49,633 bases of DNA from Planctomycetota bacterium (lineage in GTDB: Bacteria > Planctomycetota > Phycisphaerae > Phycisphaerales > SM1A02). The stretch spans positions 1-49,633 of the forward strand of contig JADFFQ010000025.1 in NCBI GenBank assembly GCA_022568135.1, written 5' to 3'. Each line of letters opens with the position of its first letter. The first letter of the stretch is position 1. Below, in pieces: positions 5,781 to 45,607 of the stretch. The notes beneath the pieces are model-generated. The model had not been told where the DNA came from and did no database searches. It was given only the letters and a program-made list of their open reading frames with translations. A program made the position numbers and the translations under genes.

Positions 5781-7229
5781 TCACCGCGCCTCGATGGAAT
5801 CGGGATGCGGCAACAGGGCGACTTTCACCGTTCCCCTTTCCACCAACAGTAGCCCAACCAAATATCCATCAGCGCGGGCTACCACACAGGCCCCGTGCCA
5901 GGAGTCATCCACAGTTACCGCCGGGTCAACGGCCCAGAAGTCCTGCTGCTGCGTGAGGCGGGCGGCGGCCAACGGCAGCGGTGTCGCGGTGGGGTCCCCG
6001 ACCGCGAGACAATCCTCGGGCTCCCGCGCCGAACGCAGTCGGTCCGATGGCCAGCTCGCCGCCGCCACCTGCGCACCGATCACCGCCAGGCCGCCATACT
6101 CCCAGATTGGTTCGGCATCCAGCGGCAGCTCAGTGCCGGCAATCTCCAGCACGCTGGTCTCGCGATCGGCATCCTCATTTGGCCGAAGCAGGTCAGCCGG
6201 ACCGATCAGGCCCTGGGTGATCTGCAGGACCCACCCCTGGCGCGAGCGCTCGCGGCCGATCCACCAGCCCTGCGTCCAACCAATCGTGGCCCGCATGGGG
6301 TTTGGAAGCGGAGCCCCGGGCGGCAACATTGAGCTGCCAATGACCGTCAACGGCTGCCACTCGAGCCAATCCTCCGGCGGATCGGCCTCAAAGGGGAATC
6401 TGTGGCCGGTGCGAACAGTGTCTCCGGTCTCCGGAGGCGTAGCCAGGGCCACAGAGCCCCTCAAGAGCGTTTCCAACGATCGCACTTGTAGCGACAGCCC
6501 CCCCAGGCCGAGCTTCGCCTCGACGCCGCCTGTGTCCCAGAAGCGGGTGTGTTGCCGAATCAACTGTGCATACGCCCTGCCGATGTGCACTCGGGCCTCG
6601 ATGGCACCGCCATCGCTGGCCAGGCCCACTGACAGCACCGTCCCCACTTGGACCTGTCGGTAGGTCACCGGGGCCCCGCGTCGGAGGCTGCCCTGCTGGC
6701 TGGCCTGGAGGATGATCTCCAGATCGCCCGGCTGAACAGTGTGCACCACAGGCGGGTCGGCAAGGCCTATGAAGTGGCGCCTGCGGGGCCCGTCGCCGGG
6801 CAGCACCGCCAAGTAGCGGGGTCCGATGAGCGTCTCCAGGCCCGCCACCCCGGCCAGACCCAGTTGGGGACGAACGACCCAGTACCGGCTGCCCGAGCAC
6901 GCCAGTCGGTCCGCCTCGGTATGTAGAGCCGCGGTGATCCGTATGCCATCGAGACCTTCAGCCAGTTCCACCCGACGCACTTCGCCGACTTTAATGCCGC
7001 GATATCGCACTTCATCGCCCGGTTCGAGCCCGAAGCCCTCAGGCAACTGCACCGTCACGGTCACGCCCCGTAGCGACCAGGCTTGATAGGCAAGCCAGCC
7101 GGCGAACAGCAGCGCCAACGCCGGCAGCAGCCACACGGCCGAAAGACGCCTTCGCGGTTTCAGCACCGCCTGGGGGAGCGGGCGTGGGGTTTCGATCGTC
7201 TCGCCCTCACTTCGCGGTGCATCCGTCAT
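5781..7229 (-). CDS. pqiB: PqiB-like MCE-domain lipid-transport protein
   Basis: Start at 7229 is fixed by an ATGA overlap with the upstream pqiA-like gene, implying translational coupling. The protein (482 aa) has an N-terminal cytoplasmic stretch with prolines, one membrane helix (VWLLPALALLFAGWLAYQAW), then MCE (MlaD-type) domains: one with FGLEPGDEVRYRGIKVGEV and one with LRRGAPVTYRQVQVGTVLSV. E. coli PqiB has three MCE domains in a row; only two are evident here. The C-terminal 170 residues are not MCE-like and look beta-rich. PqiB-type proteins form periplasmic channels for lipids between inner and outer membrane. No pqiC lipoprotein gene follows. Confidence 0.8.
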   Translation of the reverse strand: MTDAPRSEGETIETPRPLPQAVLKPRRRLSAVWLLPALALLFAGWLAYQAWSLRGVTVTVQLPEGFGLEPGDEVRYRGIKVGEVRRVELAEGLDGIRITAALHTEADRLACSGSRYWVVRPQLGLAGVAGLETLIGPRYLAVLPGDGPRRRHFIGLADPPVVHTVQPGDLEIILQASQQGSLRRGAPVTYRQVQVGTVLSVGLASDGGAIEARVHIGRAYAQLIRQHTRFWDTGGVEAKLGLGGLSLQVRSLETLLRGSVALATPPETGDTVRTGHRFPFEADPPEDWLEWQPLTVIGSSMLPPGAPLPNPMRATIGWTQGWWIGRERSRQGWVLQITQGLIGPADLLRPNEDADRETSVLEIAGTELPLDAEPIWEYGGLAVIGAQVAAASWPSDRLRSAREPEDCLAVGDPTATPLPLAAARLTQQQDFWAVDPAVTVDDSWHGACVVARADGYLVGLLLVERGTVKVALLPHPDSIEAR

Positions 7230-7846
7230 GGTTGCGGCTCCCAAAGACTGTGCGGATCAAACGAGGCAGCGGCAAACAAGCTCAACGTCACGCACAACGT
7301 GAACGCCAGGGCCGCCGGTCCCACGCTCACCTCCACCAAGTCGCCGAGCTTGAGCACCGCTACGAGGATGGCCACCAACAACACGTCGAGCATGCCCCAT
7401 CGACCCGCCCACTCGACCATGCGGTAGGTCAGGGCCCGATGATGGCGTCGCAGCGCCGACCCGCCCATGGAGAGAACGATCAACGCTGCTAGCTTCAGCA
7501 CCGGAAACACCATTGAGCAAAGCAGCACGACCAGCCCGATAATGATATGGCCACGGCTCAGTAAGGTGCTGACACCTTCAACGATGCTCGCTTCATGCGC
7601 GTGACCGAACTTCTCGATTCGGATGAACGGCAAGCTCACCGCCAGTGGATAGAGAATGAGGGCCGCGGTGGCAATGGCGGCGGTGCGGCTGTTACCGGCC
7701 AGGTGCTTGGCTGGGGTTCGCAGGGTGCTGCCGCAGCGAGCACAGCAGGCCCGCATTCCCCCCGGCACGCCCGGCATCGTCTGCACCAGCCCGCAATACG
7801 GGCAGCTGCGCAGCCGCTGGGGGGTGACCGGGGCGTCGAGGCTCAT
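7226..7846 (-). CDS. pqiA: PqiA-like integral membrane protein with zinc-ribbon N-terminus
   Basis: The N-terminus has two CxxC pairs (CPYC and CARC) forming a zinc ribbon, followed by about four hydrophobic helices: TAAIATAALILYPLAVSLPF, then IIIGLVVLLCSMVFPVLKL, LLVAILVAVL and a last one near the C-terminus. This is one PqiA module; E. coli PqiA has two in tandem. The segment FIRIEKFGHAHEASIVEGVS is typical of the family. It is the inner-membrane partner of the MCE protein encoded directly downstream with an ATGA overlap. Start ATG at 7846 is preferred; an in-frame GTG at 7900 would add 18 residues without obvious homology. Confidence 0.8.
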   Translation of the reverse strand: MSLDAPVTPQRLRSCPYCGLVQTMPGVPGGMRACCARCGSTLRTPAKHLAGNSRTAAIATAALILYPLAVSLPFIRIEKFGHAHEASIVEGVSTLLSRGHIIIGLVVLLCSMVFPVLKLAALIVLSMGGSALRRHHRALTYRMVEWAGRWGMLDVLLVAILVAVLKLGDLVEVSVGPAALAFTLCVTLSLFAAASFDPHSLWEPQP

Positions 7847-7973
7847 GGTCGGCACTCCGTGCTCCGACGCAGACACTACCCCAGATGCAGGTGCAGTCAA
7901 ACAACGCCCAGCTGGCCCGCATCAGCATCACGATGATGCTCGCGTGCAGCGCCGCCGCGGCGCGCTGAACCTC

Positions 7974-8096
7974 GAAGCCGGACCTGACGAGTCTTCGAGG
8001 AAGGTCCGGATCGGAGGGGGGTCGGAGGGCACTGGGTGCTCGGTATCCGGGCCTTCCTCGTCCCGACAGGAGTCGGGACTCGTCAGACCCGGCTTC
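7974..8096. repeat. Palindromic REP-pair, copy A
   Basis: Two hairpin units face each other. The left arm (7974-8010) begins GAAGCCGGACCTGACGAG and ends GAGGAAGGTCCGGA; CCGGACCT pairs with AGGTCCGG. The right arm (8045-8096) is the same unit inverted and ends in GGCTTC, with an inner stem CCCGAC/GTCGGG. The copy ends four bases from the stop codon of the transposase-like gene at 8101. Confidence 0.85.
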
Positions 8097-8100
8097 AGGA

Positions 8101-8586
8101 TCACTTGCGTCGCAACGGCGGCGCATCGTAGTCGCGCCGCCAGATCCAGGCCGACTCCTTCTCCGCGTGTGAACAGATGTACGTGAACACCCGCTGGGCA
8201 TGCTCGGCGGTGCGGATGCGGATGATCTTCCCTCCACCGGCCCAGAGTCGACCGGGATGATCTTCGAGCTTCAGCGACGCGTACTGCTTGGCCTTTCCCA
8301 GCGTCTGCATTGCATCGGAGTCCGCCGAAGCGAAGAGTACATGAAGGTGTGTTGCGCCGCAGGACAGGGCGCGGACTTCGCAGTCGGCGTTGAACATTTT
8401 GTAGGCGAACGCCGAACCGACAATGGGCATCTGATCGCCTCGCAGTTGCACCGGACGCGACTTCATCCGCGCTCGCACGGACCGGTGGAGCCCGACATGT
8501 TCCTCAAGCGGTGGCCGGCTTCGATAGTCGCCCGACGAGTGAAGTCTGTGTCCGCGGGACCGCCAACCGCGTTCATCGCCGGGCAT
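8101..8586 (-). CDS. REP-associated Y1 (IS200-like) transposase family protein, N-terminally short
   Basis: The protein of about 161 residues has an HUH-type motif in CGATHLHVLFAS and a later helix RVFTYICSHAEKE whose tyrosine fits the catalytic Tyr of Y1 transposases. The start MPGDERGW corresponds to the (T)WLPGDERGW segment that in relatives is preceded by about 10-15 residues (a YHLTWTTYGT-like strand). Here that part is missing, because the repeat copy begins 20 bases upstream. The protein may therefore be truncated, or it may use a non-standard upstream start; the frame stays open but offers no ATG, GTG or TTG apart from a TTG one codon upstream. Single-strand DNA cleavage at the flanking hairpins is the expected activity of the family. 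Confidence 0.65.
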   Translation of the reverse strand: MPGDERGWRSRGHRLHSSGDYRSRPPLEEHVGLHRSVRARMKSRPVQLRGDQMPIVGSAFAYKMFNADCEVRALSCGATHLHVLFASADSDAMQTLGKAKQYASLKLEDHPGRLWAGGGKIIRIRTAEHAQRVFTYICSHAEKESAWIWRRDYDAPPLRRK

Positions 8587-8901
8587 CAATCCGAGAATAC
8601 TGACTGAAGCCGGACCTGACGAGGCCCGATTTGTCGGGACGAGGAAGGTCCGGGTGGAGGGGGCATCAAGCGGTCAGTATCCGGGTCTTCCTCGCTTCCT
8701 GCGGTCGCTCGTCAAACCCGGCTTCACGGCGGATTCGCCAGCCCCGGCTTCGGGCGGCTAGACTAATGCCATCATCGCGTATGGAGCCGGCGCCTGGTCA
8801 GGGGGCGACGGTAATTGGGATCCAAAGGCCTGACGACAGATCGAGACTACCTTGCCGGCGGCCCGACGCAATCGCGCCGCCGGACGCGATGAGCATCGTG
8901 C
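8587..8901. other. Intergenic region holding repeat copy B
   Basis: These 315 bases separate the divergent transposase-like gene and the PSP1 gene. Repeat copy B takes up 8606-8725; the rest (8726-8901) carries no recognisable ORF. It must contain the PSP1 promoter, but no clear -35/-10 pair was seen. Confidence 0.6.
8606..8725. repeat. Palindromic REP-pair, copy B
   Basis: The left arm starts GAAGCCGGACCTGACGAG at 8606, has an inner stem CCCGAT/GTCGGG and closes with GAGGAAGGTCCGGGT. The right arm (about 8679-8725) is the inverted unit and ends ACCCGGCTTC. It lies 20 bases upstream of the transposase-like start codon. Confidence 0.85.
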
Positions 8902-19830: not shown

Positions 19831-19854
19831 CGGTTGAAATCCTCCTCGACAAGC

Positions 19855-19902
19855 AAGCCGAACCTGACGAGTCCGCCGTGGCGGACGAGGAAGGTCCGGG
19901 TC
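19855..19902. repeat. Single REP-type hairpin unit, copy C
   Basis: One arm only: AAGCCGAACCTGACGAG, the inner stem GTCCGCC-GT-GGCGGAC, then GAGGAAGGTCCGGGTC. The outer stem has one mismatch (CCGAACCT against AGGTCCGG). It lies between hisS and the DUF1080 remnant. The inner stem sequence differs from copies A and B but still pairs perfectly. Confidence 0.8.
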
Positions 19903-19941
19903 GTTGTGCTGTATCCAAAATCCGCGACCTTCCGCCGGCGG

Positions 19942-22425: not shown

Positions 22426-22459
22426 GGCCGTTCATCGTAACGCACGCCGCAAGCTGTGG

Positions 22460-22807
22460 TCATCCACCAAGCGCTGCCAAGAGCTTCTGCGCCTCCTTAG
22501 CGAGCACCGCAACGTCGTTTTCGATAATCCTCCAGACAACCTCGTCCTTGATGACGTCATACCCGTGTATGAGTTGGTTGCGGAAGCCAATGATCGTTGC
22601 GGCCTCTGAAACGTTGTGTTCGATGCTCGGGTCGAGGTCAATCGCCCGCCGCAGAGCTTCGCCGATGATGATGAACTCCCGCTCGATACTGGAGCGAGTC
22701 TGCCGCACCGTTTGGTACGTCTCAAGACTCGAGCCGGCAGCGGTCTGCTCGATCGCACTGCACGCCTCCACAATGTCATGGAGATACTTCCGCAGATCAC
22801 GCGGCAT
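22460..22807 (-). CDS. hepT: HepT-like toxin (DUF86), type VII toxin-antitoxin
   Basis: The 115-residue all-alpha protein has the HEPN active-site motif R76-NQLI-H81-G-Y83 (RX4HXY). In the best studied pair, HepT is an RNase whose tyrosine is oligo-AMPylated by MntA. The start ATG at 22807 overlaps the end of mntA (22797) by 11 bases, the standard coupling for these pairs. An 11-residue upstream extension in the same frame is unlikely to be used. Confidence 0.88.
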   Translation of the reverse strand: MPRDLRKYLHDIVEACSAIEQTAAGSSLETYQTVRQTRSSIEREFIIIGEALRRAIDLDPSIEHNVSEAATIIGFRNQLIHGYDVIKDEVVWRIIENDVAVLAKEAQKLLAALGG

Positions 22808-23105
22808 AGAGCAGCACCTTGCTTGCCTCGACGGACTCACGGAAATATGGATTGCGAATTGCGGGCAGCTCGATGAGGTCGATGTTGCGGCCGAATAATC
22901 CGCTTAGCCCCTGCTGAAGCCGAAAATACACATCGTCAAATCCGCTGCGGGGGCCGGGGAGGAACTCCACGAGAAAGTCCAAATCGCTGCGGTCCGGGTC
23001 AAATCTATCGGTTGCCGCGGAGCCGACGAGGTACAGCGCCCTCACGCGATGGTCCTTGCAAAGGCTTCGGAGTTCATCCCGCTTCTTGGCGCTAATCGTA
23101 TTCAT
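22797..23105 (-). CDS. mntA: MntA-like nucleotidyltransferase antitoxin
   Basis: The 102-residue minimal nucleotidyltransferase has YLVGSAATDRFDPDRSDLDF, that is G28-S29 followed 12 residues later by D41-x-D43. The usual spacing is GS-x10-DxD; here it is one residue longer. It is expected to neutralise HepT by AMPylation. mntA precedes hepT with an 11-base overlap. The pair sits between mcm and the alcohol dehydrogenase gene, all on the minus strand. Confidence 0.85.
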   Translation of the reverse strand: MNTISAKKRDELRSLCKDHRVRALYLVGSAATDRFDPDRSDLDFLVEFLPGPRSGFDDVYFRLQQGLSGLFGRNIDLIELPAIRNPYFRESVEASKVLLYAA

Positions 23106-23155
23106 GACACGAGACTCTCAGGTCCCGCCCTTGTCTCTTGGGGAGGTGTGCAGGT

Positions 23156-24829
<1,674 letters not shown>

Positions 24830-31621: not shown

Positions 31622-31638
31622 GGCGGATACCCTCGGCA

Positions 31639-32334
31639 GTTTAGCGGGCGGGCTTGCCCGCCGCGTCATCGCAGCGGCGTGAACGCCGCCGCTGAACGTG
31701 TACCATACATTCATGGTCCAGGCATATCACGCGGTCTTCTGCGCCTACGGATTCTGGCTTCCCAATGACCCCCGCGGTTCCTGGTCGGACTTTGTGCGAA
31801 CGTGGGAGCTTCGTCTGTTCGGACCTGCGACCAAGGTCACCACACGACGTTCGGTCGCCGCCAGCCCACACGATCGTGAATTGCGCGAAGTTGCGAAGAC
31901 GGCACTTCGATTCCCGGCTGTAAACTTCAATGGTCATCAAGCGTTGAGTATTGCGCGGGGATTTGCTACCGCATCAACACATTCGGAGTATTGAGTCCTG
32001 GCGTGCAGCATTCTGCCCGAGCACGTCCATGTCGTTGTTGCACGTCATGAACGACCGATTGAAAAGATTGTCGCGCACCTGAAAGCCGAAGCAACGCGCC
32101 AATTGAATGCAGAAGGACGTCATCCGTTGCTCGGCTATACGGAGAGCCCTGGACCAGCACCGTCACCGTGGGCTCGCAAATGTTGGAAGGTCTTCCTGAA
32201 CAACAACAACGACATTCGCCGGGCGATCCGTTATGTGCAAGAGAATCCAGCCAAGGAAGGCAAGCGCCGGCAGGAATGGTCGTTTGTTACTTCGTTCGAA
32301 GGATCGCCTCGGTGGGCAAGCCCGCCCGCTAAAC
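31639..32334 (+). mobile_element. Second REP/RAYT-like unit with 21-bp perfect inverted repeats
   Basis: GTTTAGCGGGCGGGCTTGCC plus one C at 31639-31659 is repeated exactly in inverted orientation at 32314-32334. Next to each end lie further palindromes: GCGGCG-TGAA-CGCCGC near 31674-31689 and GCGACGC-TT-GCGTCGC at about 32343-32358. The Y1 transposase-like gene lies inside. The repeat family is unrelated in sequence to copies A-E. The unit begins 18 bases upstream of the SDR start and ends inside the 3' end of the transposase frame. Confidence 0.7.
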
Positions 32335-32390
32335 GGTTTAGCGGCGACGCTTGCGTCGCGCGCATTAGGTTTGCAACACGCCGGTCTTGA
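31713..32390 (+). pseudogene. Y1 (IS200/RAYT-like) transposase gene with in-frame TGA
   Basis: From ATG 31713 the frame reads MVQAYHAVFCAYGFWLPNDP (the conserved YH..F..YG.WLPNDPRGS start), meets TGA at 31992-31994, and continues in the same frame as VLACSILPEHVHVVVARHER with the HUH motif (HVH) and later IRRAIRYVQENPAKEG with the candidate catalytic tyrosine. The upstream part lacks the HUH motif, so neither half is active alone. A single C-to-T change (CGA to TGA) would explain it. TGA ends many intact genes here, so recoding is unlikely. The last 25 codons run into the inverted repeat, so the natural C-terminus is probably earlier. Confidence 0.75.
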
Positions 32391-39412: not shown

Positions 39413-39508
39413 GAAGCCGGACCTGACGAGTCCTCGAGGAAGGTCCGGGTCAATGACAGAACCATCCACCACCCGAGTCTTCGTTGAGGACTCCTCAGAC
39501 CCGGCTTC
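39413..39508. repeat. Palindromic REP-pair, copy D, inside the fabZ-acp-fabZ set
   Basis: The left arm (39413-39451) begins GAAGCCGGACCTGACGAG and closes AGGTCCGGGT. The right arm (about 39471-39508) is inverted and ends CAGACCCGGCTTC. It starts two bases after the ACP stop and ends nine bases before the next start codon, where a ribosome-binding site would be expected. Confidence 0.85.
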
Positions 39509-40930: not shown

Positions 40931-41065
40931 ACAGCGCGGCTACCGGCGCCCGCCGTCGGCCGGATATGCATTCGGGGCTGTGAAAGGGAAACTTGTAGCC
41001 CAGCGTGAGTGTGCGGGATCGTTCTCGGTGCCGGCCCCACTCGCGTAGGATGCGCACCGACGAGC

Positions 41066-41897: not shown

Positions 41898-43823
41898 ATG
41901 CCTGCACATGTGCTGATTGCGAGCGTTGTTGCGATTGTTGCATCGGGTGCTTCGCCGCAGGGTCAGGAAAGCGCTGGTCAGCCGCCGGCGCTGCACTGGG
42001 CGATCAAGCTCGGGATGCGCGTGGAACAGGTCAACCGGGCGTTTCCACTTGTCGATCGGGTCGTGCTCGTTCCCGATGGTGCGACCTATGTTGATGAACT
42101 GTCCAAGTGGTCGCCGCAAGGCCGCTGGCCGGTGCTCATTGAGGACGACCATCTGGCCCCAATGTTCATCCGTCGGTTCAAGCCGGCCCAGGTGGTTCGT
42201 CGCACCTCGGTAGGGCGCTTCGGCCCATCGCAGCAGGATCGGCAGCGACTGCTGGAAGCGGTGGTCGTGCGAAGCTGGGGCGGCGAACCGCATCAAGACA
42301 CGCTCCGAGAAGTCTTTGAGCGAAGCAATCACACACCGGCCGGCTTGGTCATCACCTCGGTGGCGGACCCGGCATGGACGGCTGCGATTGCCCTTGCGGC
42401 TGGTCGGGGCCAACCCATTGCCTGGCTGAACGAGCGGTTCGGCCGGCCCAACCAACTGCTCGATCCTGAATCGCTTGCCCGACTACTGGGGCGAATCGAC
42501 GAGCTTCTCGCCGAATCCGGCTACCCATACGCCGATCTGGGCGACGCAATCGACGCCATCACGTTCTGCCGGGCAGTTGCCGGGCGGGCCGATGTCGATC
42601 CCGACTCAAAGCGGGACGAGGTCCGCGCGATCACCGACCTCATCGGCCGCACCCGGACCGGCACACGCAATGCGTTCGCCGGATGGATCTTCGGCGATGA
42701 GGTTCGCTGCGCGTACATCGCAATGTGTTCGATGTTTCTGCCGCGCACGCAGATATGGCTGTACAACACCTATCCCGGCACGGGCAACTGGCGGGTATAC
42801 GGTGTCGGCGACGCTACTGCGGCTCTCGCGGACAAGGGCTACCAAGCATCTGCCTTCAGCGGCGACCGGACCACGAGCGATGCGTGGATGAACATGCTCC
42901 CCGGAGGGATCGCGACGGACGTGCTGGTGATGAACACCATGGGAAGCGCAGGCCTCTTCAGATTGTCCCGCGGTCGGGCTTATAGCGGTGACGTGCCGGT
43001 ACTCAACGAGCCTTTGGCGTTACACCTGACCCACAGCTGGTCGATGCGGTCGCCTGACAATCTGGCGACCATCGGCGGGCAATGGCTGGCCCGCGGCGTC
43101 TACGCGTTCGTCGGGGCGGCAGATGAGCCCTTCCTGGGGGCGTTCTTGCCACCGGTGGAGCTTGCCAAGCGCTGGGCAAATTATGTGCCGTTTCTCATCG
43201 CGGCCAGGCACTTTAGCGACTCCGGCCCGTGGAAGGTCAACACCTTTGGTGATCCGCTGATGCTCTGCCCGCCACCGGAGCCTTCCGCAAGGCAGCGCGT
43301 TGAGCCGCCCGCCTCCGAAGGGCTTGATCTGTCCGAACACGTCACGAAACTGATGCGCCACGCCGCATCGGATCAGACCGGTGACACAATCGCCGAGGCG
43401 ATTGCCACGCTGAACCTGCTGGGCAAGGACGACATCGCGATTCAGATGTGGCGGCTGGCCGGGCAACATGGATTGCTCGCCGCGGCTGCACGTCCTTCCG
43501 CGGGACCGCTCTTTCGCGCCCAACGGGTCGATGATTACATCGCGGCGTGGCAGGCAATGCCGTATCGCGATCAACTCAGCAGCGATATGCTCTGGCACCT
43601 GATGACGCCGCGGCTGGGGCCGGCCATCGACAACGACACGCTCATTCTTCTGCAATCAGCGATCCGCAAACCTCGGAGCCATGTCGATCTCCAGCGGTTG
43701 GCGCCGCATCTGACGGCGGTGTTCGGCCTCGCTCACACCAGGCGGATCATCCAGCGCGAGCTTGAGAACACCACGAATCCGCAAGCCATCAGAAACCTCC
43801 AGCGGCTGCTGAACAGAAACTGA
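41898..43823 (+). CDS. Large secreted protein, weakly gingipain (C25)-like
   Basis: The 641-residue protein begins with a signal-like stretch (MPAHVLIASVVAIVASGASP). Repeated alpha/beta segments follow. One, TPAGLVITSVADPAWTAAIALAAG, resembles a cell-wall-binding-like subunit; another, GVYAFVGAADEPFLGAFLPP, and NTFGDPLMLCPP resemble the C-terminal end of caspase-fold peptidases of the C25/C-terminal-GDP type. I cannot identify the His-Cys dyad of C25, so a peptidase function is not supported. The last 150 residues look like helical repeats. No membrane segment besides the signal is seen. It is probably exported; function unknown. Confidence 0.45.
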   Translation: MPAHVLIASVVAIVASGASPQGQESAGQPPALHWAIKLGMRVEQVNRAFPLVDRVVLVPDGATYVDELSKWSPQGRWPVLIEDDHLAPMFIRRFKPAQVVRRTSVGRFGPSQQDRQRLLEAVVVRSWGGEPHQDTLREVFERSNHTPAGLVITSVADPAWTAAIALAAGRGQPIAWLNERFGRPNQLLDPESLARLLGRIDELLAESGYPYADLGDAIDAITFCRAVAGRADVDPDSKRDEVRAITDLIGRTRTGTRNAFAGWIFGDEVRCAYIAMCSMFLPRTQIWLYNTYPGTGNWRVYGVGDATAALADKGYQASAFSGDRTTSDAWMNMLPGGIATDVLVMNTMGSAGLFRLSRGRAYSGDVPVLNEPLALHLTHSWSMRSPDNLATIGGQWLARGVYAFVGAADEPFLGAFLPPVELAKRWANYVPFLIAARHFSDSGPWKVNTFGDPLMLCPPPEPSARQRVEPPASEGLDLSEHVTKLMRHAASDQTGDTIAEAIATLNLLGKDDIAIQMWRLAGQHGLLAAAARPSAGPLFRAQRVDDYIAAWQAMPYRDQLSSDMLWHLMTPRLGPAIDNDTLILLQSAIRKPRSHVDLQRLAPHLTAVFGLAHTRRIIQRELENTTNPQAIRNLQRLLNRN

Positions 43824-43948
43824 TTGGTTTCTCCCGGTTGTCCGCGTCGGATCAGCGGCGCGATGCGATCCGTGGAGTCCGAGCCGGCGGGTAACCATCC
43901 CGACCCACGGCCGGGGCTCACGGCCGTCTGGTCCGGACCGTAATCAGT

Positions 43949-44431
43949 TCACGGGTAGGTCGCCGCCAACCGATAGCCGGGCTCGGCAGGCGGTTGGCCG
44001 CGCGTCACCACCTCGACGTAGACCTCCACCGCGGAAAGAACCGCCTGCTCTCGATGCGGCAGCATCAACATCTGCTCCACCGGCGCAGCGTCCTCCTCCG
44101 GAGCAGGTTTCTCCAGCATCAGGTACAGCCTCAACAAACCGTCCTGGAGTTCCGCTCGATCCTCCTGCAGCCGGTAGCGTTTGGTCGGCGTGGTCGCAGT
44201 GACCATGGCTAGGTAAAGCGGCGGGTTCACCTGCTGGACTTGAATCTGGACTGTAATCGGCGGGCCGGAATACGCTTTCGCCGGCGACGGCGCGGTCGTG
44301 GCCGGGTCGTCGGTCACCGCCCCGGCGTCATCACCCGCAGCGTCATCCGGTTCGGCCCCCGGCTGCTTGCGGCATCCGGAGCCAAACCAAACAAGCCCGA
44401 TGGTCAGCGCTGCACAGAGCCAGAGTCGCAT
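43949..44431 (-). CDS. Putative lipoprotein, 160 aa
   Basis: AAAGGAG precedes ATG 44431. The signal ends in LVWFGSGC (C20 lipobox), followed by an acidic Ala/Asp-rich linker (about 25-55) and a beta-rich domain starting PPITVQIQVQQVNPPLYLAM. The family is not recognised. It lies 20 bases after sucD on the same strand and is likely cotranscribed, though no functional link is evident. Confidence 0.7.
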   Translation of the reverse strand: MRLWLCAALTIGLVWFGSGCRKQPGAEPDDAAGDDAGAVTDDPATTAPSPAKAYSGPPITVQIQVQQVNPPLYLAMVTATTPTKRYRLQEDRAELQDGLLRLYLMLEKPAPEEDAAPVEQMLMLPHREQAVLSAVEVYVEVVTRGQPPAEPGYRLAATYP

Positions 44432-44451
44432 CGCTTCTCCTTTCACAGTTT

Positions 44452-45393
44452 TCACAATCCTAGGGCTCTCGCCATGGTCGAACCGATTTCAGCCGGGCTT
44501 TCGGCGACGTGTACACCGCAGTGGCGCAGTGCCCCAATCTTCGCCTCAGCAGTGTCGTCCTTGCCGCCAATGATCGCCCCAGCGTGTCCCATGCGCTTGC
44601 CCGGCGGCGCGGTCCGCCCGGCGATAAAGGCCGTGACCGGCTTGGACATGTGCTGCTTGATCCATGCCCCGGCCTCGGTCTCGTCGGAGCCCCCGATCTC
44701 GCCGATCATCACCACGCCGTCCGTTTCACTGTCGCGCTCGAACATATCCAGCAGCTCAATGAACCCAAGACCCTTGACCGGGTCGCCGCCGATCCCGACA
44801 CATGTCGTCTGGCCGATGCCCAGATTGCTGCACTGCCACACGGCCTCGTAAGTGAGCGTGCCGGATCGACTGATGACGCCCACCGCCAGACCGCTGGCCG
44901 CATCGTGCTTGGCCAGGTGGATGTAGCCGGGCATGATGCCGATCTTGCATCCGCCCTCAAATGTTGCATCCGCGCCCTCGCCGGCCACGCGCCGCCCCGG
45001 ACTGATGATCCCCGGGCAGTTCGGACCGATCATGCGAGCCTCGGGAAAGTCTCGAAGCGCTGATTTGGCGCGGATCATGTCCTGGGTCGGGATGCCCTCG
45101 GTGATTGCACATATGACGCTGATGCCTGCGGCCGCCGCTTCGAGAATCGCGTCTGCGGCGAAGGGCGGGGGGACGAAAACCATCGTGGCGGTCGCTTGGG
45201 TGCCGGCCACCGCATCGGCGACGGTGTCGAAGATCGGAAGATCGTTGGTATCGCGCCGGCCGCCTCGGCCGGGCGTGACGCCTCCGGCCATCCGCGTGCC
45301 GTAATTCAGGCAGCCTTTTGTGTGAAGGGCGCCGAAGCTCCCGGTAATACCCTGACAGAGAACTTTCGTATCGCCATCAACCAGGATAGCCAT
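44452..45393 (-). CDS. sucD: Succinyl-CoA synthetase alpha subunit
   Basis: Start at 45393 ([20 protein letters not shown]) gives 313 residues. CoA-binding and ligase motifs are present: [46 protein letters not shown] and the phosphohistidine loop [11 protein letters not shown] (H270). The enzyme couples succinyl-CoA cleavage to ATP or GTP formation in the TCA cycle. An insertion near 136-170 makes it slightly long. The beta subunit sucC, normally directly upstream, is not present; the upstream neighbour is purM on the other strand. A stretch open far upstream in the same frame is not part of the gene. Confidence 0.93.
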
Positions 45394-45434: not shown

Positions 45435-45607
45435 GAAGCCGGACCTGAGGAGTCCGCCTCCGGCGGACGACGAAGGTCCGGGTCGCCTTGTGGATTGCGG
45501 CGGACGACGAAGGTCCGGGTCCGACGGGGGTCCGGGTGGCCTCGCGGCCCCTGGCGGAGCGCAACTGTACCCGGACCTTCCTCGCTTCGCTCGTCAGATC
45601 CGGCTTC
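45435..45607. repeat. Palindromic REP-type element, copy E, with internal duplication
   Basis: The outer ends are GAAGCCGGACCT (45435) and GATCCGGCTTC (45607). The left unit has inner stem GTCCGCC-TCC-GGCGGAC. A 23-base stretch with GGCGGACGACGAAGGTCCGG at 45462 is repeated exactly 37 bases later (45499). The right arm carries CCCGGACCTTCCTCGCTTCG. It fills most of the divergent sucD-purM region. Confidence 0.85.

Follow-up and report, generated by a model that had tools for sequence, protein, structure and literature searches.

A probable REPtron-like locus in a planctomycete: a Y1 transposase-like gene between inverted pairs of mismatch-bearing hairpins

In a Planctomycetota bacterium of the order Phycisphaerales (assembly GCA_022568135.1), a gene for an HUH/Y1 transposase-like protein lies between two inverted pairs of hairpins that resemble repetitive extragenic palindromic (REP) elements. 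It is found on contig JADFFQ010000025.1, all 49,633 nucleotides of which were analysed (the window; contig 82 of a 3.35-Mb assembly of 87 contigs). This is very probably (roughly 0.8) a REPtron-like locus, the protein family of which likely binds the hairpin and would cut and rejoin it, thereby spreading its units. The family, to whose type A (HSSGDY motif) the window gene belongs, is the likely mover of the repeats because in related genomes the gene and a hairpin of common design co-occur far beyond chance. The biology of REPs and of REP-associated tyrosine transposases (RAYTs) is known from few, mainly gammaproteobacterial models, where the enzyme is directed by a GTAG guide, to which a bulge is added in E. 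coli.

The gene and its hairpins in window and genome

The type A gene occupies 8101..8589 on the minus strand, as judged from the open reading frame (ORF), the homologues and the predicted fold of a paralogue, P0012. Its stop codon is at 8101-8103 and the frame is open to TTG 8589, giving 162 codons from there, with ATG 8586 as the other possible start. The protein has an HUH motif (HLH) and a putative catalytic tyrosine (Y in YICSHAEKESAW), both conserved in the homologue alignment. Neither Pfam nor the NCBIfam cut-off recognises the family, as judged by the scores of the window protein and of the 11 members of alignment A1. A Pfam search with the window protein reached no family, including PF01797 (Y1_Tnp), which is matched by 1 of the 11 members (E 0.0021). 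Against NCBIfam NF047646 (REP_Tyr_transpos) the window protein scores 14.5 bits, below the cut-off of 80, and five of the 11 match this model with a best E of 4.4e-6. A Y1 transposase fold is predicted for the full-length P0012; Foldseek alone gave no match below E 0.001 (best 1.9e-3).

Each gene-flanking element consists of two inverted hairpins, one with the stem CCGGACCT and the other with CCGGGTCT or CCGGGTTT. The downstream element (7974-8096) lies 4 bases from the stop codon and the upstream element (8606-8725) 19 bases from 8586, just as an earlier sequence-only reading had placed gene and repeats. Unit a of the downstream pair (7974..8013, plus strand) has the foot GAAG, the stem CCGGACCT/AGGTCCGG, tandem G.A mismatches and the tail AT; it scores 47.2 bits with the structure model R1, being itself one of the 17 units from which R1 was built. 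Its inverted partner, unit b (8043..8096, minus strand; 35.0 bits), has the stem CCGGGTCT/AGGCCCGG with one G.T pair. The upstream pair is formed by unit a at 8606..8657 (plus strand, 39.4 bits) and unit b at 8677..8725 (minus strand, stem CCGGGTTT, 34.5 bits). Folded as DNA, the first three units reach -10.1, -16.1 and -15.6 kcal/mol, values equalled by 1, 1 and 0 of 200 shuffles, respectively. The single-stranded DNA fold of 8677-8725 is weak and not distinct from shuffles (29 of 200 as good).

The repeat family recurs, also as previously noted, at three other sites of the window (19854-19903, 39413-39508 and 45435-45607), all recognised by R1. The first is a single unit (19854..19903, plus) and the second an inverted pair (39413..39452, plus; 39469..39508, minus), and both are present in the same-genus genome G003. 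At the third site the window has an inverted pair (45435..45485, plus; 45567..45607, minus), whereas G003 has a single unit. This alternation is compatible with the processing of single units.

An 18-base unit occurs nine times in the window with up to 3 mismatches, as compared with 0.08 occurrences expected from shuffles, which rules out chance similarity of the repeats. In the whole genome there are 54 matches with up to 2 mismatches vs three for a reversed control pattern, and with the structure model 48 full units are detected (E <=0.05), most of which are not beside a type A gene. Gene position was examined with a simple ORF caller for the 30 best genomic units, 28 of them with enough flank: 7/28 lie inside called genes, as against 1071/1400 random stretches of the same loci. 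In 22 of the 28 cases the genes on either side of the unit run in tandem or convergently, and in one case they diverge. On contig 25 (79944-80193; L002-L005, L211, L214), a half-unit is repeated four times in tandem with a 43-base period and is followed by an inverted unit.

Homologues, relatives and hairpin design

The flanking arrangement recurs at homologues of the gene. All 73 distinct homologue loci were taken, three of which are too short, and in 59 of the 70 testable loci a repeat is common to both flanks, as compared with 1 of 376 controls, for which pairs of stretches were displaced inside these loci. An earlier count, which included duplicates but left out seven loci lacking an automatic ORF and three with short flanks, gave 64/77 vs 1/386. 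The repeats differ between lineages and many keep one common design. Two paralogues are found in the genome itself, both with units on either side. P0012 (contig 56) is full-length, with 187 codons, 74% identical to the window protein, and its stems, CCGGACCT and CCGGGTCT, are also found in the window; it is the likelier working enzyme. The paralogue on contig 13 is untruncated and 60% identical, with the stems CCGGACCT, CCGGTCCT and CCGCGTCT. At L010, beside the full-length paralogue, the repeat piece CCGGACCTTCCGCGCGCGCTCCAC is seen by eye about four to five times in tandem (~2075-2190). The 52 homologue loci in named genomes comprise 49 titled as planctomycetes, two as Vicinamibacteraceae (one a metagenome-assembled genome) and one as a cyanobacterium. 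The title Vicinamibacteraceae is doubtful because the proteins of these two loci are the same as those of loci in G047, a genome placed in the window's own order.

Gene and repeat also occur together among relatives. In 61 relatives, with the gene family called at E <=1e-10 and R1 repeats at E 0.01, both are present in 21 genomes, the gene only in three, the repeat only in two (one copy each) and neither in 35. Repeats are thus found in 21 of 24 genomes with the gene vs 2 of 37 without it. When counted by genus within the family, 6/6 gene-bearing and 1/28 gene-less genera have them. Genomes were typed by the motif of the best match, G006, which has no motif, being counted as type A by its tree position. 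Of the 13 type A genomes 12 have repeats (median 20), and of the 11 with only the sister type B nine (median 7); the 37 genomes lacking a gene of the family include two with one repeat. Across 251 genomes of the order, where at most 13 and 27 candidates were scored per genome and repeats called at E 0.001, the counts are 34 with both, 28 with the gene only, 19 with the repeat only and 170 with neither. These co-occurrence statistics ignore ancestry. The REP/RAYT-like layout proposed from sequence holds up in both comparisons, since flanking copies, rather than being absent beside homologues, recur at 59 of 70 loci, and gene and repeat keep company among relatives.

Several observations weigh against the type A family as mover of the repeats. 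Six of the 24 genomes of the order with at least eight repeats have no gene match at E 1e-10, and a full rescan of these six gave no match at E 0.001 in five. The sixth, G257, has weak gene matches only (best 1.5e-7). Likewise, the same-genus genomes G001, G002 and G003 (82-92% complete) keep 26-28 repeats but yielded no intact type A gene. Thus, some genomes keep many hairpins without the gene. The outcome that would have spoken against the sequence-only reading, equal abundance of the repeats in gene-less genomes, is not what the 61 relatives show (21/24 vs 2/37), but with these 6 of 24 repeat-rich genomes the result is not a clean one. The six (G068, G108, G146, G160, G180 and G257) belong to another family of the order and appear to have orphan repeats. 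Stretches from all but G160 contain true units, in three cases as inverted pairs, and G257 is of the same genus as the gene-bearing G232, with which it has a stem in common. In our reading the gene was lost from these genomes and the repeats survived; as they are 91-97% complete, the gene may also fall in assembly gaps. An explanation through other Y1 genes found no support: 0 of 16 Y1 records (L132-L147), from four of the six genomes, have an R1 unit, and the remaining two genomes gave no Y1 match at E 0.001.

The hairpin design is constant while the stem bases vary: a foot NA[AC]G, a stem CC-N5-T, tandem G.A mismatches and a tail [AG]T. A search that imposed CC at the stem start, T at the stem end and the G.A mismatches, without an imposed foot, found 125 units on 27 different 8-base stems. 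Of these, 124 have the foot NA[AC]G and one has CTCG. The stem is directly followed by A or G in 125/125 and then by T in 122. In a looser search, which imposed only GCC and an exact stem and then required GA at either end of the loop, all 58 units have a stem closed by T, and 57 of the 58 have the foot A[AC]G. Positions outside foot and tail have weak base preferences only, so the edges of the element are sharp. Base pairing is kept across changed stems, in a covariation test that is partly circular because units were selected for exact 8-bp stems, only the inner G-C/C-G pair and the closing T-A not being imposed. A test for enrichment of CT next to the hairpins gave no result, and in the 125-unit set foot position 3 has no clear pairing with the first tail base.

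The kind of hairpin follows the kind of gene. Where any hairpin is found, type A genes mostly have mismatch-bearing hairpins, whereas the sister group type B (HVEGDY or similar) mostly has perfect palindromes such as GAAGCCCACGGGCTCGAGCCCGTGGGCTTC. By a strict rule (exact 8-bp stem), the 56 type A rows comprise 24 mismatch-bearing, four palindromic, four other and 24 without a hairpin; the 16 type B rows comprise 15 palindromic and one without a hairpin, none being mismatch-bearing or other. One row with neither motif is mismatch-bearing. On the tree, 14 of 15 type B rows group together with strong support (100/98). The kind of hairpin changes four times along it vs about 14 in shuffles (0/500 as low). 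When R1 was run on 45 records of loci with type B or other Y1 genes, three of the genes counted twice, it found a single unit, at a distance of over 1 kb from the gene.

As we infer the mechanism, the protein family would bind the folded single-stranded hairpin, cut it and rejoin it. The parts recognised would be the foot, the G.A mismatch and the tail; the analogy is with E. coli, whose REPs require both their foot and a bulge in the stem (PMC8266576). The conserved tyrosine would cleave adjoining the hairpin, possibly acting in trans on dispersed copies, and single as well as paired hairpins would in this way spread between genes.

Decay of the window copy and rival explanations

The window copy is probably a young pseudogene and inactive, because P0010 has 20 more residues and because remnants are found in two same-genus species. 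The window protein has a shorter N-terminus than the nine full-length relatives of alignment A1, all of which have the first strand (residues 15-21 in the P0012 model) that is missing here. The near-identical P0010, a 103-residue fragment on an 832-base database contig, has the same upstream repeat-derived sequence. It keeps 20 residues, including strand 1, that are gone from the window protein between two Met-Pro steps. The gene has likely lost its first strand through a 60-bp in-frame deletion, placed at the Met-Pro codons 8581..8586 (minus strand) by comparison with P0010, whose extra 20 residues end in Met-Pro; the gap may also come from an assembly error. The sequence-only reading had offered two explanations of the truncated N-terminus, decay and replacement of the first residues by the repeat. 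The former is supported, and the latter is rejected since P0010 has both the upstream repeat-derived sequence and the missing residues. In G002 and G003, which belong to the same genus, the site has been reduced to the upstream pair and a short piece of the gene, the downstream pair being gone.

On one side of the gene lies a PSP1-family gene (PF04468; 8902-10164) and on the other a PqiA-family gene (7226-7900). A type A gene stands upstream of the PSP1 neighbour in three genera, at a distance of ~310 bases in the window's genome (G000), ~350 in G033 and ~300 in G034, with different stems each time; in G034 the matches fall in two frames, so that this copy may be broken too. The PqiA-family neighbour was found at this site only in G000, G002, G003 and, without the transposase gene, G015.

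It is unlikely that the window copy is a working short variant starting at ATG 8586 or TTG 8589. Its reading frame is open over 190 codons with HUH motif and tyrosine in place and no stop, and a 121-residue internal form with nine member sequences exists in the protein database. Against this, the strand present in the nine other full-length A1 proteins is missing, and in two species of the genus decay at the site is more advanced. That the repeats are instead spread by a non-type-A Y1 protein of the same genome seems improbable. There are about 25 Y1 loci in the genome, and some repeat-rich genomes have Y1 genes but not a type A gene; however, no R1 unit lies near the other Y1 genes in the 45 records searched, nor near the 16 of the repeat-rich gene-less genomes, and many of the other Y1 genes come with their own repeats.

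An IS200/IS605-like transposon, in which gene and flanking hairpins jump as one mobile unit, is quite improbable. The identities of the other two copies argue against a recent burst, and so do the 48 genomic repeats, most away from any type A gene, against a joint jump. In three genera the PSP1 neighbour of the gene stays the same and the repeat stems do not, and the window protein lacks a Pfam Y1_Tnp match. Little weight falls on the view that the host keeps the hairpins as ordinary terminators of transcription or for the stabilisation of mRNA, with the gene among them by accident: it is very remote. Their mostly intergenic position, and the orientation of the surrounding genes, would suit it. 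It does not account for the sharing of repeats between flanks (59/70 vs 1/376) or for their absence from 35 of 37 relatives without the gene, and terminators are not expected to have a common foot, mismatch and tail on 27 stems.

Beyond the REPtron-like locus itself, we lean, with some reserve, towards a REP-RAYT lineage of the planctomycetes' own with a different recognition code. In type A this would be the guide NA[AC]G, the tandem G.A mismatch and the [AG]T tail, and in type B perfect double-footed palindromes, with transposase lineage and hairpin architecture switching together. Stems would turn over while the gene keeps one site across genera, and the window would represent the end of the cycle, where hairpins outlive the decayed enzyme. 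If this is true, a lineage in another phylum, having its own guide, its own mismatch and two architectures that follow the transposase tree, would allow direct tests of what the enzyme reads in the hairpin and of how the match between enzyme and repeat is maintained while stems turn over. The 125 units and the dozens of genes provide substrates for such work.

Other Y1 families are also represented. In the 3.35 Mb of the genome there are ~22 further Y1-like loci of other families (L012-L036), 16 of which have a repeat common to their own flanks (score >=18, without a separate control). Many of these repeats are palindromes, different ones in different families, and the genome in effect houses a whole set of REPtron-like units. 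One locus, L024, is in the window at 31947-32282 (plus strand), where a Y1 gene of a different family has an in-frame TGA and a GTTTAGC repeat on both flanks; this region (31622-32372) differs from G003. Three more stretches of the window (22442-23158, 40940-41030 and 43774-44459) are absent or replaced in contig 46 of G003.

Place among known REP and Y1 systems

The window locus works like a REPtron, the repeats on both sides of its gene having copies throughout the genome. It resembles canonical RAYTs (TnpA-REP of E. coli and Pseudomonas; PMC8266576, PDB 4er8) in its HUH motif and tyrosine, predicted fold and REPtron layout. With the canonical GTAG REPs, the repeats have in common the inverted pairs, the foot, a mismatched bulge in the hairpin and intergenic dispersal. 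It is nevertheless not a canonical GTAG RAYT by foot, tyrosine motif or family score. The GT[AG]G foot is replaced by NA[AC]G in 124/125 units, and the AA/GC bulge of canonical REPs by a tandem G.A mismatch together with a near-invariant [AG]T tail. The Y-x-x-x-NP motif, tabulated for canonical class 2 RAYTs in PMC6006769, is absent from the 67 tyrosine motifs listed; the tyrosine was picked automatically, wrongly in at least one row (L012), and 1/68 rows had none.

The TnpA proteins of IS200/IS605 elements (IS608, ISDra2) are similar in predicted fold and in HUH and tyrosine motifs. They differ in that the locus has no sign of movement as one unit and its repeats are dispersed alone. Near-identical copies moving with both ends, a feature of IS200/IS605, were not found in the genome, where the other copies are 74 and 60% identical.

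PMC3733652 describes TIRYTs and TIRtrons as well as planctomycete GTAG REPs. These systems resemble the window locus as Y1 genes, many of them in R. baltica, with flanking inverted or self-complementary repeats, but those repeats are GTAG-tagged or long terminal inverted repeats (TIRs), some with GGGGWSAS. The suggestion that a planctomycete version may be undescribed therefore stands in part: REPs, Y1 transposases and class 3 of planctomycetes are published (PMC3733652, PMC6006769), and the window's hairpin design was not found in the available text of these two papers on planctomycete REPs, Y1 transposases or class 3.

Class 3 TnpA-Y1 is described in PMC6006769 as planctomycete or acidobacterial, with atypical hairpins, a Y----Q motif and a 5' foot CnGA. 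Y----Q is present in 11 of 67 readable members of the present family; in the window protein the Q is replaced by A. The hairpins here are atypical, with CTGA or CAGA at the stem mismatch and not at the foot, which is NA[AC]G. Compared by description only, class 3 as presented in that text is the nearest described kin of the window system.
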